This document shows, piece after piece, positions 3,837 through 18,294 of a stretch of 26,001 nucleotides of DNA. The position numbers and the translations under genes were made by a program. Source of the DNA: a virus; IMG/VR virus record IMGVR_UViG_3300021519_000059, positions 1-26,001 of that record. One strand, given 5' to 3'. Positions within the stretch are counted from its first letter, which is position 1; every line of letters begins with the position of its first letter. The notes under the pieces are model-generated. The model was given only the letters and a program-made list of their open reading frames with translations. It was not told where the DNA came from and searched no databases.

Positions 3837-3979
3837 CCGAATACCCAGCCATCGCCCGACTTGTCCGCCGCGTCTCACGCGCCCCGCACGGCCAGAAGCG
3901 CGCCCTTGAGCGGTCCCTTTTGAAGGCACGCCTTGCCAGCCTCAAGCGCGAGATCAAGACGAGGAAGGCTGGCAAATGA
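3833..3979 (+). CDS. Small basic hypothetical protein
   Basis: A 48-residue, strongly basic and helical peptide (many Arg/Lys, ending in KREIKTRKAGK) from ATG 3833 to TGA 3977-3979. It overlaps both neighbours by ATGA. Nucleic-acid binding is plausible from charge alone. No family was recognised. Confidence 0.5.
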   Translation: MTEYPAIARLVRRVSRAPHGQKRALERSLLKARLASLKREIKTRKAGK

Positions 3980-4098
3980 GCCGCCTCGCATCAACCCCGA
4001 TCTGGTTGCGAACTGCTCCCCCGAAACGGGAGGCAATTCCCGACGTGCGACGGAAGAACATCAGCAACTGCTCGGCCACCGTGTGGAGGGTGCTGTGA
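3976..4098 (+). CDS. Small hypothetical protein
   Basis: A 40-residue frame from ATG 3976 to TGA 4096-4098. The start overlaps the previous stop (ATGA), and the stop overlaps the GTG start of the methyltransferase (GTGA). It has no recognised motif. It may serve mainly to deliver ribosomes to the next gene. Confidence 0.4.
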   Translation: MSRLASTPIWLRTAPPKREAIPDVRRKNISNCSATVWRVL

Positions 4099-4595
4099 GC
4101 GCGTGGGAAGCGTCGGGCAAGACCGACGAATGGTACACGCCTCGCTACATCTTCGATGCGCTGGGCTGCCGGTTCGATATGGACGTGGCCGCTGCGCCGG
4201 GCGGCTGTCACGTGCCGGCGCTGTATTTCGAGCGGCACAAGGGCCTTGAAATCGACTGGCGCGGCTTTGTCTGGATGAACCCGCCGTTCGGCGGTCGCAA
4301 TGGCCTCGTGCCGTGGCTCGACAAGTTCTTCAAGCACGGCGATGGGATTGCCCTTGTTCCCGATCGCACGAGCGCCCCATGGTTTCAAGCCTACGCTCGG
4401 ATGGCGAGCGCCGTCCTGTTCGTCGCGCCAAAGATCAAGTTTGAACGGCCAGACGGATCTGTCGGTCGCTCGCCGGGTTGTGGAACAGCGCTTCTGTCGG
4501 CTGGTCCGCGCGGGCTTGTTACCCTTTTTCGCGCTGGCTCGCTCGGCCTCGTCGTGCAGCCGAACAAGGTCGCCAACGAAAGACTTGCCGCATGA
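4095..4595 (+). CDS. Phage Dam-type N6-adenine DNA methyltransferase
   Basis: A 166-residue protein that should transfer a methyl group from S-adenosylmethionine to adenine in DNA, of the phage Dam (PF05869-type) family. Visible family hallmarks are TPRYIFDAL at 15-23, the DMDVAAAPGG segment at 28-37, the catalytic NPPF motif at 62-65 within VWMNPPFGGRNG, the LVPDRTSAPWF stretch at 88-97 and KIKFERPDG at 113-121. The length is normal for the family. Phage enzymes of this kind protect phage DNA from restriction or tune replication. The target site cannot be read from sequence, and GATC is only the family precedent. GTG 4095 is chosen over upstream starts because it overlaps the preceding stop and begins just before the conserved region. 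Confidence 0.88.
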   Translation: MSAWEASGKTDEWYTPRYIFDALGCRFDMDVAAAPGGCHVPALYFERHKGLEIDWRGFVWMNPPFGGRNGLVPWLDKFFKHGDGIALVPDRTSAPWFQAYARMASAVLFVAPKIKFERPDGSVGRSPGCGTALLSAGPRGLVTLFRAGSLGLVVQPNKVANERLAA

Positions 4596-4598
4596 CCC
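4095..4598 (+). other. Translational-coupling junction region of the methyltransferase gene
   Basis: The methyltransferase frame begins at GTG 4095, inside the previous gene's stop (GTGA). It ends at TGA 4593-4595, which overlaps ATG 4592 of the nuclease gene. An upstream in-frame extension to 3933 exists but reads as a shadow of the two preceding small genes. Confidence 0.4.
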
Positions 4599-5002
4599 GC
4601 TCCAAGTACAACGCCAAGCCCCAGGTAAGCGAAGCGGCTCTGCACAAGTCCGTGGCGGACTATCTGCGCCGCGCGCTCAAGCCTCCGACGATCTGGACCA
4701 CGATCGGCCACGGCGGCGGCGGCAGGATCCGCGGCGCCCAACTCAAGGCCATGGGCGTCCAGAGGGGCTGGCCAGACATCATCGTCATGACGCCGGATGA
4801 GAACAACCTGTGCGCCAACGTCGTCGGCATCGAACTCAAGACGCCCAAGGGCACGCTCTCGCCTGAGCAGAAGGTCATGCACGCGGCCTTCAAGAGCACA
4901 TGGGCTTGGTACTTCAAGGCAACCTCCGTCGAGCAGGTCGAGACGTTCCTGCACGCCGCCAAGGTGCCCCTGCATGCGACCGCTGGAGGAACCCGCGCAT
5001 GA
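4592..5002 (+). CDS. VRR-NUC domain nuclease
   Basis: A 136-residue stand-alone VRR-NUC (PD-(D/E)XK superfamily) protein, expected to cut branched or structured DNA. The motifs follow family order: Glu14 in the first helix, the Gly-rich turn at 39-44, GWPDIIV with Asp62, the IELK motif with Glu81 and Lys83, and the LSPEQ motif with Gln93. The size matches phage versions, which are often encoded in early or replication modules and may help resolve recombination intermediates. ATG 4592 overlaps the methyltransferase stop, and its own stop overlaps the next ATG. Confidence 0.85.
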   Translation: MTRSKYNAKPQVSEAALHKSVADYLRRALKPPTIWTTIGHGGGGRIRGAQLKAMGVQRGWPDIIVMTPDENNLCANVVGIELKTPKGTLSPEQKVMHAAFKSTWAWYFKATSVEQVETFLHAAKVPLHATAGGTRA

Positions 5003-5193: not shown

Positions 5194-5450
5194 GCGGTCC
5201 CGGTCGCCCCAAGGGCTTCAGCCCTTCGCCTGAAACGAGAGCGAAGCTTCGCGCCAACATGCTCGCACGTCCCGACATGATGGAGAGGGCCATGAAGGGG
5301 CTGGAGGCCGCCTGGAAGTCACCAAACCGTGGGCGACGCCGCACACGCCCGCCGGCCGGCACACCCGAGCGGCTGTACTTCGAGAAGGTGCGGCGCGAGC
5401 TGGGATCGCCTGCCGCGCACGCCGCCGTGAGGAGTGGGGCAAATGCCTGA
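5190..5450 (+). CDS. Hypothetical basic early protein
   Basis: An 86-residue frame from ATG 5190 (ATGA overlap) to TGA 5448-5450. The N-terminal segment GRPKGFSPSPETRAKLRAN resembles short DNA-contacting modules seen in phage proteins. The remainder is Arg-rich. No enzymatic motif was seen. Its 3' end carries the GAGGAG that serves the replication gene. Confidence 0.5.
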   Translation: MSGPGRPKGFSPSPETRAKLRANMLARPDMMERAMKGLEAAWKSPNRGRRRTRPPAGTPERLYFEKVRRELGSPAAHAAVRSGANA

Positions 5451-6303
5451 GTCGTTCACCAAGCTTTTCTCCTCGATCATCACGTCGACAGTGTGGTCGC
5501 ACGACTCCGACACCAAGGTCGTCTGGGTGACGATGCTCGCCCTCGCCGACAAGAACGGTGAAGTGCAGGGGAGTGTGCCCGGTCTCGCTCGCCTCGCAGG
5601 CGTGTCCGTGGAGGCCTGTGAGAGGGCGCTGGAAGCGTTTCTTGCCTCCGACAGGTATTCCCGCACCCAAGACTACGAAGGCCGCAGGATCGAAGAAATA
5701 CCGGGCGGCTGGTCGCTTCTGAATTACGCCAAGTATCGGAAGATGGCGTCGGTCGACGACCAGATGGAAAAGGGCGCTGAGCGTGCGCGCCGGTATCGCG
5801 CCAACAAGGCCGGTCGAGATTGCGCAGGAGACCGTGACGACACCGTGACGAGTCGTGACGCATCACGCGATATCACGCAAATCACGCCAGAAGCAGAAGC
5901 AGAAGCAGAAGCAGAAGCAGAGCTTAAGCCTGAAGGCTTAAGCCAAGCAGACGGACAGCAGCGGCAGAAACGAGCGAGGTCGGACGATGAGCGCATCAAA
6001 CTCCCCGCAGACTGGCGGTCTACGCCCGATGACCGAGCTTATGCGAGCGACAAGGGCCTCGATCCAGAATCGACCGGCGCAGCATTCACCGACTACTTCG
6101 TTGAGGGTCGAGGGCGAAACGAGAAACGGACCATCGCCGGGTGGTCTAAGCGTTACCGGATCTGGTGCAACACCGATGCGGCGCGCCGACCTGCGGCCCC
6201 AGGTGGCGCGGGTGTTCGACCTGCCGGACGCAGCGACGAATCTAGCGCGTTCGCTCGGGCGGCTGCTATCCTGGCAGGAGGCGAGCATCTACGCGGGCGA
6301 TGA
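5443..6303 (+). CDS. Phage replication initiator-like protein (winged-helix N-terminus)
   Basis: ATG 5443 has GAGGAG 8 nt upstream, giving 286 residues; a GTG at 5434 in frame is less likely. The N-terminus (FTKLFSSIITSTVW, WVTMLALADKNGEV, GSVPGLARLAGVS) matches a widespread family of phage replication proteins with a winged-helix fold, functionally like lambda O. Residues about 125-185 form a charged linker with an (EA)5 run. Residues about 187-245 (LPADWRSTPDDRAYA ... WSKRYRIWCN) resemble the C-terminal helical segment that such proteins use to contact the helicase loader or ssDNA. The linker DNA holds the repeat cluster at 5833-5943. The last 43 residues overlap the next gene and have weak codon bias. 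Role as initiator is inferred from family and position. Confidence 0.65.
   Translation: MPESFTKLFSSIITSTVWSHDSDTKVVWVTMLALADKNGEVQGSVPGLARLAGVSVEACERALEAFLASDRYSRTQDYEGRRIEEIPGGWSLLNYAKYRKMASVDDQMEKGAERARRYRANKAGRDCAGDRDDTVTSRDASRDITQITPEAEAEAEAEAELKPEGLSQADGQQRQKRARSDDERIKLPADWRSTPDDRAYASDKGLDPESTGAAFTDYFVEGRGRNEKRTIAGWSKRYRIWCNTDAARRPAAPGGAGVRPAGRSDESSAFARAAAILAGGEHLRGR
5833..5887. repeat. Iteron-like cluster: six CGTGA/TCACG motifs at ~10-bp spacing
   Basis: CGTGACG occurs at 5833, 5844 and 5854. TCACGC, which contains the reverse complement of CGTGA, occurs at 5863, 5873 and 5882. Successive starts are 11, 10, 9, 10 and 9 bp apart, about one helical turn. The two halves meet in a CGTGA-CGCA-TCACG dyad at 5854-5867. 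All lie in the linker-coding part of the replication gene, a location like lambda ori inside gene O. Confidence 0.55.
5888..5923 (+). repeat. Hexanucleotide tandem repeat, five CAGAAG units plus a variant
   Basis: Five perfect CAGAAG units run from 5888 to 5917, followed by CAGAGC. In frame they encode Glu-Ala repeats in the protein linker. Copy-number changes would keep the reading frame and only alter linker length. Confidence 0.8.
5922..5943. repeat. Perfect 9-bp inverted repeat with 4-nt loop
   Basis: Arms GCTTAAGCC (5922-5930) and GGCTTAAGC (5935-5943) enclose TGAA. The hairpin follows the tandem repeat directly. No T-run follows, and it is inside a coding frame, so it is not a terminator. 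Each arm contains CTTAAG, the core of the left operator boxes. Confidence 0.7.
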
Positions 6304-6670
6304 GTTTGCCGGCGTGCGGATCAAGGACGTGGTCGTTCGTCCCGGTTTCGATGCGGCCGAAGTCCAGCGCCATGCCGCCGCCGTCGAGCGGCTGTGTGAG
6401 CCCTGCGGACCCGACCTCGCGACCCACAAGCTGGCCGAACTCCGCAGACTGACCGCTCATCGCGCGCAAGGCGATAACGACATGGTTCTGGCTGCAGTGG
6501 CTTATGGCCAGCGCCTCGCTCAGTACCCGGCTGATGTCGTGACTGCCGCCTGCGATGGCTGGGCAGACCGCGAACAGTGGTGGCCCTCGTGGGCCGAACT
6601 CAAGGCCGAGTGCGACAAGCGCATGCGTGGCCGCCTGCAGGTTCGTGACGCGCTGAGGAGGTTCCAATGA
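6176..6670 (+). CDS. Putative replication accessory protein (possible helicase-loader-like)
   Basis: A 164-residue frame from ATG 6176, which overlaps the replication gene by 128 nt in a different frame. Third positions in the overlap are much more G/C-biased in this frame than in the frame of the replication gene, supporting the early start, although no Shine-Dalgarno is evident. The C-terminal part carries AQYPADVVTAACDGWA and WWPSWAELKAECDKR. This pattern is common in small phage proteins encoded next to initiators and reminiscent of G39P-type loaders (YP, then W, then WP-x-AEL). There is no ATPase motif. A loader role is a guess from position and this pattern. Confidence 0.55.
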   Translation: MRRADLRPQVARVFDLPDAATNLARSLGRLLSWQEASIYAGDEFAGVRIKDVVVRPGFDAAEVQRHAAAVERLCEPCGPDLATHKLAELRRLTAHRAQGDNDMVLAAVAYGQRLAQYPADVVTAACDGWADREQWWPSWAELKAECDKRMRGRLQVRDALRRFQ

Positions 6671-15216: not shown

Positions 15217-15620
15217 TGAGCACCAAGACCGCGCGCACCCTCATCACCGAGGCCATGCAGGACATCGGCATCGTCTCCGATCAGGAGGCCATGTCAGCGG
15301 CGCAGGGCAACTACGGCTTCCGCAAGCTCAACGACATGCTGGCCGGTTTCGAGAGCGAGGGCATCCGCTACGCCCACACCGATTTGGCCTCGCTGGATAC
15401 CGTCGTGAACGTGCCCGACGGCCAACTTCGCAACGTCGGCCTGATGCTCCAGAACGAGCTGGCACGGGCCTATGGTGTGGCCCTGAGCGACGACGACCGC
15501 GACGCCGCCTACAAGGCGCGGACGGCGCTGCAGGCCTTCTACTACGTGCCGATCACGTCGGCGCCGGAACTGGCGATCCGCACCCGCCGCTTCGGGCGGT
15601 ATAATTTCACCACAGGATGA
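15216..15620 (+). CDS. P22 gp4-like head-to-tail adaptor (tail accessory factor)
   Basis: A 134-residue, mostly helical protein; P22 gp4 is 166 residues. The N-terminus TARTLITEAMQDIGIVSDQEAMSA and KLNDMLAGFESEGIRY, then LRNVGLMLQNELARAYGV, are characteristic of this family. It binds under the portal and gives the platform for gp10-like protein. TAATG overlaps with the preceding gene, and its stop overlaps the HNH gene start by ATGA. Confidence 0.85.
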   Translation: MSTKTARTLITEAMQDIGIVSDQEAMSAAQGNYGFRKLNDMLAGFESEGIRYAHTDLASLDTVVNVPDGQLRNVGLMLQNELARAYGVALSDDDRDAAYKARTALQAFYYVPITSAPELAIRTRRFGRYNFTTG

Positions 15621-16096
15621 GCATGCACTCGCTCACCCTGCGCCTCGAAAGAGACGCGATCCCGGAACCCAACAGCGGCTGTCTGTTGTGGACTGGTGCA
15701 ACCCAGAGCAATGGATACGGCCGCGCGCAGTGGGGCGCGCGCGGGAAGTCTTACCTTGTTCACAGGCTGGCGTGGCAGGCAGCAAACGGACCGATCCCAG
15801 AAGGGAAAGTTGTCTGCCACAAGTGCGACGTGCGGTCTTGCATCAACCCCGCGCACCTGTTCGTCGGCACTCAGTCCGACAACATCAAGGACATGTATGA
15901 CAAGGGGCGCGTGCCACGATTCCGGGGGCAGGTGCCACGGCGCGGTGAGGCCGGGACGGCCGCAAAGCTGACCGCTGAGATTGTAATGCGCATTCGTTCG
16001 GATGGGCGTTCAGCCAGAGAGTGGGCCACCGAAACCGGGGTCCACCAGATGACTATCTACAAGATTCGCAATCGGCGAACCTGGGCGCACATCTGA
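15617..16096 (+). CDS. HNH homing-type endonuclease with C-terminal HTH
   Basis: A 159-residue free-standing endonuclease. The HNH_3-like core runs from about 20 to 98: CLLWTGATQSNGYGR, His49 in VHRLAW, NGPIPEG, VCHKCD (Cys67, Cys70), Cys75, NPAHL with His80, and GTQSDNIKDM. Residues 117-159 (KLTAEIVMRIRSDGRSAREWA ... TIYKIRNRRTW) form a HTH that selects DNA. It is inserted between gp4-like and gp10-like genes, with ATGA at its start and TGATG at its end, so neither neighbour is disrupted. It likely promotes its own spread between related phages by cutting alleles lacking it. A paralogue is on the opposite strand at 17780-18250. Confidence 0.85.
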   Translation: MSMHSLTLRLERDAIPEPNSGCLLWTGATQSNGYGRAQWGARGKSYLVHRLAWQAANGPIPEGKVVCHKCDVRSCINPAHLFVGTQSDNIKDMYDKGRVPRFRGQVPRRGEAGTAAKLTAEIVMRIRSDGRSAREWATETGVHQMTIYKIRNRRTWAHI

Positions 16097-17517: not shown

Positions 17518-17783
17518 CTGCACCACTCAATTCCTCGGCCGCCATCGTCGACAGCGCCGGCCGCGCGACCCGCGCCCTCATCGCGTACCTGCAGGCCCTC
17601 GGTACAGGCGTCGTCGAGCGCACGACGTACACGGCGGCCCAGCTCGCCACGATGGCTCCGGAGAAGGTCTCCACGGCGATCTGCACGGACCTGTCGGTGA
17701 CGACGTTCGGCAACGTGATCGCAGGCGGCGGCGCCAACACCCGTCCCGTGTTCTGGGACCTCACAGATTGGCGCGTGGGCTAG
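17514..17783 (+). CDS. Small tail-associated protein with fibre-like C-terminal motif
   Basis: An 89-residue protein with ATGA overlap with the gp10-like gene. An N-terminal Ala/Ser-rich helix is followed by TFGNVIAGGGANTRPVFWD and WRVG, a motif recurring at the ends of phage fibre and tail proteins. A needle like gp26 would be much longer, so it is not an obvious homologue of that. Its stop TAG (17781-17783) overlaps the stop of the antisense HNH gene in CTAG. Confidence 0.55.
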   Translation: MTAPLNSSAAIVDSAGRATRALIAYLQALGTGVVERTTYTAAQLATMAPEKVSTAICTDLSVTTFGNVIAGGGANTRPVFWDLTDWRVG

Positions 17784-18250
17784 CGAAGATGACCCCAAGT
17801 CTTGCCGCGCAACACGTCCTGCACCGCATGGTGGCCGACACCAAGGGAGGCCGCCATCTTGCGGTAGCTCATCGGTCTTTGGCGGATCATGCGAACGTCT
17901 TCTGCCGTGAGCTTCGATGCGCCGATTGCCTCACCGCGCGCCTGCCTGTTCCGCGAAACCTTGTCGGCCGCGTTATCTCGCGCAGTCCCAAGGCGCATGT
18001 GCGCGACATTGATGCACGTCCGCACGTCGCAAGAGTGGCAAATCTGAAGACCTGTGGGGATCGGGCCATTCACCACCTCCCAGGCAGCCCTGTGCGCGCC
18101 TGTGGTTCGCCCCTGATAGCAGACGTTCCCGTATCCACTTTTAGCGACCGCTCCGACCCAAAGAACGCAACCCGTGGATGTTGGCGGGGACGAATGCATT
18201 GCCAGCACATCAACGAGAGATGCGCCGTTCTTAGCCTTTATGCGACCCAT
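17780..18250 (-). CDS. HNH homing-type endonuclease, antisense within the late operon
   Basis: A 156-residue relative of the HNH protein at 15617-16096. The core has CVLWVGAVAKSGYGN, His53 in AHRAAW, NGPIPTG, ICHSCD (Cys71, Cys74), Cys79 and NVAHM with His84 where NPxHL is usual. The C-terminal HTH begins with SKLTAEDVRMIRQ, and the sequence ends TWGHLR. The start at 18250 is chosen because GGGAG lies about 10 nt upstream; an in-frame ATG at 18274 is the alternative. The gene points against the late operon and shares its stop CTAG with the upstream gene, consistent with a mobile insertion. Catalytic residues appear intact. Confidence 0.85.
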   Translation of the reverse strand: MGRIKAKNGASLVDVLAMHSSPPTSTGCVLWVGAVAKSGYGNVCYQGRTTGAHRAAWEVVNGPIPTGLQICHSCDVRTCINVAHMRLGTARDNAADKVSRNRQARGEAIGASKLTAEDVRMIRQRPMSYRKMAASLGVGHHAVQDVLRGKTWGHLR

Positions 18251-18294
18251 TCCGCTGTTTCTCCCGCAGCACAAAGCACAACCGAGAGTGTATC

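Follow-up and report, generated by a model that had tools for sequence, protein, structure and literature searches.

The replication origin of phage lambda lies in the middle of gene O and combines iterons with an AT-rich tract (PMC7466680), whose purines are almost all on one strand (PMC5043065). The lambda iterons are 18- to 19-bp inverted repeats, about two helical turns apart, that bind O dimers, and past the tract the lambda sequence contains a palindrome with 12-bp arms in which 11 of the 12 positions are paired. In SPP1, oriL lies within gene 38 and comprises an unwinding element and direct repeats to which the initiator of the phage binds (PMC6316719). Direct, helix-phased iterons also adjoin the opening region in the plasmids P1, F, RK2 and R6K, where a change of phase can inactivate the origin (PMC5043065). 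In bacterial oriC, the DnaA-trio is a short strand-specific repeat that adjoins the cluster of initiator sites and is needed for opening (PMC5043065). Phage origins embedded in an initiator gene are an established type of arrangement. We analyzed a candidate in a 26,001-base fragment from an IMG/VR virus record (hereafter the window, meaning this whole stretch of DNA), with the following features:

5443-6303, plus strand: initiator gene, 286 aa, phrog_1408 ('replication initiation protein').
5461-5820, plus strand: predicted N-terminal winged-helix domain and long helix, aa 7-126 (AlphaFold2, mean pLDDT 84).
5833-5838, plus strand: site 1, CGTGAC (motif search, as for the five sites below).
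5844-5849, plus strand: site 2, CGTGAC.
5854-5859, plus strand: site 3, CGTGAC.
5863-5867, minus strand: site 4, TCACG (CGTGA inverted).
5873-5877, minus strand: site 5, TCACG.
5882-5886, minus strand: site 6, TCACG.
5888-5921, plus strand: (CAGAAG)5.7 tract made of NYAGAN units, coding for EAEAEAEAEA (TRF, 5.7 copies, 100% match).
5922-5943, no strand assigned: perfect hairpin GCTTAAGCCT-GA-AGGCTTAAGC, which outscores 400 of 400 control windows of the record.
5987-6670, plus strand: downstream ORF from the ORF list, overlapping the initiator gene in another frame.

Positions 5833-5943 are very probably the theta-type cis origin of this phage, embedded in the manner of lambda ori in the stretch of the phage's initiator gene that codes for the linker. 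The likeness to lambda, which an earlier sequence-only reading of this DNA had drawn, holds for the layout, i.e. phased sites, a purine-rich strand-asymmetric tract and a palindrome. Lambda ori and the origins of Stx phages resemble the window in their linker-coding position and in the order of iterons, purine-asymmetric tract and palindrome, in the same orientation. Unlike lambda, the family of the window uses short words of 5-7 bp that stand one turn apart and are direct in most relatives, and its tract is an exact hexamer tandem that is not AT-rich in all of them. The three-plus-three opposed sites of the window differ from the lambda iterons and from most relatives alike. We detected no homology between the N-terminal domain and lambda O (hhalign probability of 0.4%), and the two could still share a remote winged-helix relation.

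Staphylococcus phage 80alpha has a putative rep_origin inside a 'possible replisome organizer' gene, in which repeats are followed by a low-complexity tract and then by a hairpin (GTCGGG-CAA-CCCGAC), as in the window. Its tract, however, is the AT-rich ACTAATAAT and not NYAGAN, and no relation was detectable between the N-terminal domain and the 80alpha organizer protein. SPP1 can be likened to the window by description, as its origin also lies inside the initiator gene; it has a second origin, oriR. The origins of iteron plasmids usually lie outside the rep gene and, unlike these plasmids, the window gene has no plasmid Rep-type Pfam family. We also considered the tract as a DnaA-trio and rejected this: its unit is of 6 nt, it contains no trinucleotide repeat with a fixed central A, and the 3-nt register is broken by the (GCAGAC)n, (GCAGAT)n and (GTAGAT)n tracts of the family. 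Our searches of the open-access literature turned up lambda, Stx, SPP1 and plasmid origins and no description of a hexamer rule of this kind. Judging by the literature that could be searched, what is new is the combination of short words phased at one turn, an NYAGAN tract in register with them and a recurring hairpin, and the extension of this rule across initiator families.

The initiator matched phrog_1408 in a profile search (E=1e-7, residues 50-259), while a Pfam search with the ORF at 5443-6303 gave no match. A PDB sequence search with the initiator found nothing, a PDB fold search of the N-terminal domain returned generic winged helices only (E above 0.04), and tblastn of the window initiator and of its relative L005 against cultured phages gave no match. 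The N-terminal domain aligned with those of five relatives at 48-57% identity to the window initiator. We modeled the first 135 residues with AlphaFold2 from a 43-sequence alignment and obtained a predicted fold with helices and a wing at aa 7-94, followed by one long helix at aa 95-126. In this predicted structure the long helix stops just ahead of the array, which places the array in the linker-coding part, and the winged-helix domain is presumed to be the part that binds the iterons. The sequence-only reading had put all the elements in the linker of an initiator-like protein, and they do lie after the predicted winged helix and the helix at aa 95-126.

That reading had also described six CGTGA/TCACG motifs at helical-turn spacing, three direct and three inverted. 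We confirmed them at 5833-5886, with start-to-start steps of 11, 10, 9, 10 and 9 bp and a centre-to-centre step of 8 bp at the junction between the two orientations. The six sites are spread over all three reading frames, and therefore they are not a peptide repeat. CGTGA or TCACG occurs 71 times in the window, yet 56 bp hold 6 occurrences at the array, whereas no other such stretch of the window exceeds 2 and none of 300 Markov-simulated windows exceeds 4. When any 5-mer was allowed on two strands, no other chained array in the window exceeded 3 copies, compared with 6 here. None of 2000 recodings of the segment that keep the protein reached a 6-copy array of any word, and 2 of 5000 synonymous recodings contained six CGTGA/TCACG. 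The two-strand recoding test of the array was significant, whereas a one-strand synonymous-shuffle test was not (p=0.196), because half of the sites of the window are inverted. This mixed orientation and the 8-bp junction step are unusual among relatives, whose arrays are mostly all-direct, with partial mixing in L097, L066, L039 and L025. The GC skew along the window showed no switch and no origin signal at the array.

The tandem of CAGAAG units proposed earlier is present, although its count is slightly higher than five (5.7 units at 5888-5921). The tract outperformed synonymous shuffles (p=0.003) and was among the least stable 3.6% of the 34-mers of the window. The A-richness claimed for it is not invariant in the family, where it is the A and G of NYAGAN that are fixed. 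To compare the plan among relatives, we started from five sequences, extended the collection by 80 viral and 6 genome loci, and removed near-duplicates and ORFs stopping after the N-terminal domain. The resulting set comprised 63 sequences including the window; kinship was removed only partly, and the counts that follow are not independent trials. L042, L062, L073, L074 and L075 were left out of the statistics; they are tract-less ORFs that stop soon after the N-terminal domain, i.e. split genes or frameshifts. A search for prophages in 369 genomes of one class gave only 2 convincing members.

The linker peptides differ among the relatives, while the DNA plan is common to them. The array word changes by clade (GTAACG, GTCACG, GTGACG, GTCCCG, GTCTACG and GTGGACA, and further GTAGAC, GTAAGCC, GTCAGCC, GTCGCG and GTTAAC), and the best word reached a mean of 3.8 copies over the 63 sequences, compared with 1.8 in the control part of the same genes. 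Spacings of 10 bp (71 cases), 11 bp (41 cases) and 9 bp (25 cases) separated the repeats, often in an 11, 10, 11, 10 alternation (that is, 10.5 bp), and the repeats were mostly direct. Synonymous recoding was beaten at p<0.05 by 30/63 arrays and 48/63 tracts. Among 42 cases, the distance from the last repeat to the tract was 20-21 bp in 17, 10-11 bp in 8, 41-42 bp in 4 and 32 bp in 2, and in 31/42 it deviated by no more than 1 bp from a multiple of 10.5, which suggests that the tract tends to stand in helical register with the array. The segment is conserved as DNA: the relatives keep array and tract in other letters and other peptides, which supports the earlier proposal of an origin whose DNA signal shapes the protein. 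A loss of the repeats in relatives keeping the protein, named beforehand as the outcome that would count against that proposal, did not occur in the relatives examined.

At least three YAG at period 6, as NYAGAN, were found in 53/63 members and were missing from about 10/63. YAG was our criterion for counting units, and hence its constancy is not evidence in itself. The A that follows YAG was kept in 237/246 units. Within tracts, the codon for alanine was GCA in 250/258 cases, compared with 460/2013 outside them, that for valine was GTA in 48/48 and that for threonine ACA in 24/27. Acidic codons, in contrast, varied within tracts (GAA:GAG 154:58 for glutamate, GAT:GAC 71:7 for aspartate); hence, the free third base of the neutral codons is nearly always A. 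The nearest-neighbour stabilities of GCAGAA and GCTGAA are equal (-1.43 kcal/mol per step), and GCT was nevertheless never used for alanine within tracts. Across relatives, the tracts had a median instability percentile of 0.10 and an A/(A+T) of 0.92. As several relatives have (GCAGAG)n tracts with 67% GC and 9/45 tracts were not notably unstable, ease of melting is not the whole reason for the tract. We accordingly rejected a plain AT-rich unwinding element, given these GC-rich tracts and the absence of the equally stable GCT; strand-specific letters, beyond melting ease, are selected. The hexamer was also read in other frames, as QIQKQIQIQK in L087, NQNQNQNQ in L097 and, with an NYAGAN-type hexamer, RSRSRSRS in L441, which belongs to another initiator family. 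This reading in several frames points to the DNA, and not the peptide, as what is under selection. If the origin reading holds, the origin has left its imprint on the protein in dipeptide runs such as EAEAEA and DVDVDV. In L045, the linker tract reads GCATCTGCATCTGCAGATGCAGA, where the hexamer repeat switches to its own inverse and gives a palindrome.

The perfect hairpin reported with 9-bp arms is borne out, with 10-bp arms by letters and 9 pairs around a 4-nt loop when folded (z = -4.6). Within 48 nt past the tract, 27/51 members had a hairpin that ranked among the top 5% of windows for its contig (top 2% in 20 members), and the enrichment over windows of the same contig was clear (KS p=2e-12); about half of the 51 members had no notable hairpin there. 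The hairpin sequences are mutually unrelated, as in CAGATTCC-TTC-GGAATCTG, CCCACTGC-TGAC-GCAGTGGG and GGATCTAC-TACC-GTAGATCC. In L022, L029, L031, L039, L053, L061 and L090, the hairpin past the tract is often CCCCCTTACCCCC..GGGGG, coding for TPLPPKGG or TPLTPQGG, and may be a recurring palindromic insert.

We also scanned viral contigs with DNA patterns only, namely (CAGANN)5, (TAGANN)5, (AAGANN)5 and (GAGANN)5, with (GC[CG]GAN)5, which likewise encodes Ala-acidic runs, as control; the first 120 matches of each were taken and passed through a low-complexity filter. Among the matches listed, a phased array lay upstream of 12/88 CAGA, 12/75 TAGA, 8/85 AAGA and 18/77 GAGA tracts, or 50/325 pooled, compared with 0/75 in the control. 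Downstream arrays numbered 3, 4, 0 and 8, respectively, and 1 in the control, again among the matches listed. Within the listed GAGA set, 12/18 phased matches had a top-5% hairpin, compared with 11/61 of the unphased ones. Of ten phased matches drawn at random, nine encoded initiators of replication, replisome organizers or primosomal proteins, which belonged to different PHROGs; ten drawn from the unphased matches included two such proteins and one replicative helicase. Ten hand-picked phased matches agreed with the random draw. These results demonstrate that the arrangement is linked with replication initiators of several families. One locus, L628:2979-4190 (minus strand), encodes a replisome organizer initiator with an HNH-endonuclease-like segment in the middle of the protein, adjoining the origin array.

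One could argue that selection acts on the linker as an acidic peptide of low complexity, with the DNA repeats as a by-product of codon choice and slippage. The (EA)n frame does prevail in the phrog_1408 relatives, and slippage can lengthen tracts, whose unit number varies between close relatives. This reading is nonetheless very improbable, since it does not account for a fixed third-position A in Ala, Val and Thr codons next to variable third bases in Glu and Asp codons, for a tract read in three frames (EA; QI or NQ; RS), for iteron steps of 10-11 bp that are not codon multiples, or for hairpins that recur with unrelated sequences. We attach next to no probability to a chance microsatellite beside chance motif matches: slippage makes tandem hexamers and CGTGA/TCACG is common in the window, but the array was out of reach of all 2000 protein-keeping recodings, and the conserved plan, recurring in relatives with other letters, contradicts chance.

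Short phased repeats within rep genes or close to them can serve as control sites in plasmids as well. On this precedent, the array might be an operator or copy-control (incompatibility) site for self-repression or sequestration of the initiator, with replication starting elsewhere. We consider this unlikely, as it leaves the phased hexamer tract and the hairpin unexplained, the window has no second array, and the order of the elements is that of lambda ori and of the rep_origin annotated in 80alpha. Somewhat less doubtful, and compatible with an origin, is that the complement of the tract, (TTCTGC)n, is a dense series of DnaG start trinucleotides and the site of the first primer. Primases of E. 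coli and Firmicutes start at CTG or CTA (PMC5429622, PMC5204125). The complement of YAG is CTG or CTA, with both C and T found at the Y position, and the A kept after YAG places a T 5' of the trinucleotide, which the C. difficile primase favours; L006 keeps CAG and loses the following A. As a general rule, though, primase start sites predict CAGA and TAGA only, and we rejected this rule because AAGA hexamers (complement CTT) also accompany phased arrays in other initiator families (8/85 upstream and 0/85 downstream, among the matches listed). The primase-start reading may hold within the phrog_1408 relatives alone.

Taken as an origin, which the comparisons of sequence support, the segment can be given a mechanism that we infer from its layout. 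The winged-helix domain would bind the CGTGA sites, which helical phasing places on one face of the DNA, and the stacked initiator would strain the adjacent purine-rich CAGAAG tract until it opens. One strand of the tract would be captured by the initiator or a partner, the hairpin would mark or stabilise the far edge of the opened tract, and the helicase and host primase would enter after strand capture; the EAEAEA peptide would be a tolerated by-product of the DNA signal. Tentatively, the AGA hexamer tract could be a sequence-specific single-strand code, common to phage initiator families with no detectable kinship to one another, in register with the array, closed by the hairpin and read by an initiator domain or a host factor, with the EAEAEA, ETETET, DTDTDT, DVDVDV and RSRSRS runs as its imprints. 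Such a code would be a phage counterpart of the DnaA-trio or a set of primer start sites; an ssDNA-binding domain of the initiator would be an alternative to primase as its reader.

For most uncultured phages, to our knowledge, no origin has been located. The DNA rule, in which phased repeats precede an AGA hexamer tract in register and often a hairpin, picks out initiators with no protein information, and could locate the origin within about 100 bp in many phage genomes. It also offers an explanation of why phage replication proteins commonly contain alternating dipeptides: these would be DNA signals that are translated along with the gene. A GCA-to-GCT change keeps the peptide and the duplex stability and breaks the conserved strand-specific letters, and would thus separate the requirements of an unwinding element.

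On its left, the initiator gene is flanked by genes for a cI-like repressor, a Dam-type methylase and a VRR-NUC protein, and on its right by the terminase; replication modules of temperate phages commonly sit between such repressor-side genes and the terminase. The methylase gene (3933-4595) overlaps the VRR-NUC/resolvase-like gene (4478-5002) in a different frame, upstream of the initiator. The ORF at 5987-6670, whose actual start probably lies further in, matched no family in Pfam or PHROG and is, by position, an unproven candidate for a helicase loader; it ends in YPADVVTAACDGWADREQWWPSWAELKAECDKR. Within the structural gene region, two ORFs on opposite strands, 15617-16096 (plus) and 17780-18274 (minus), are HNH-endonuclease-like and resemble each other by eye (CHKCDVRSCINPAHLFVGT and CHSCDVRTCINVAHMRLGT).
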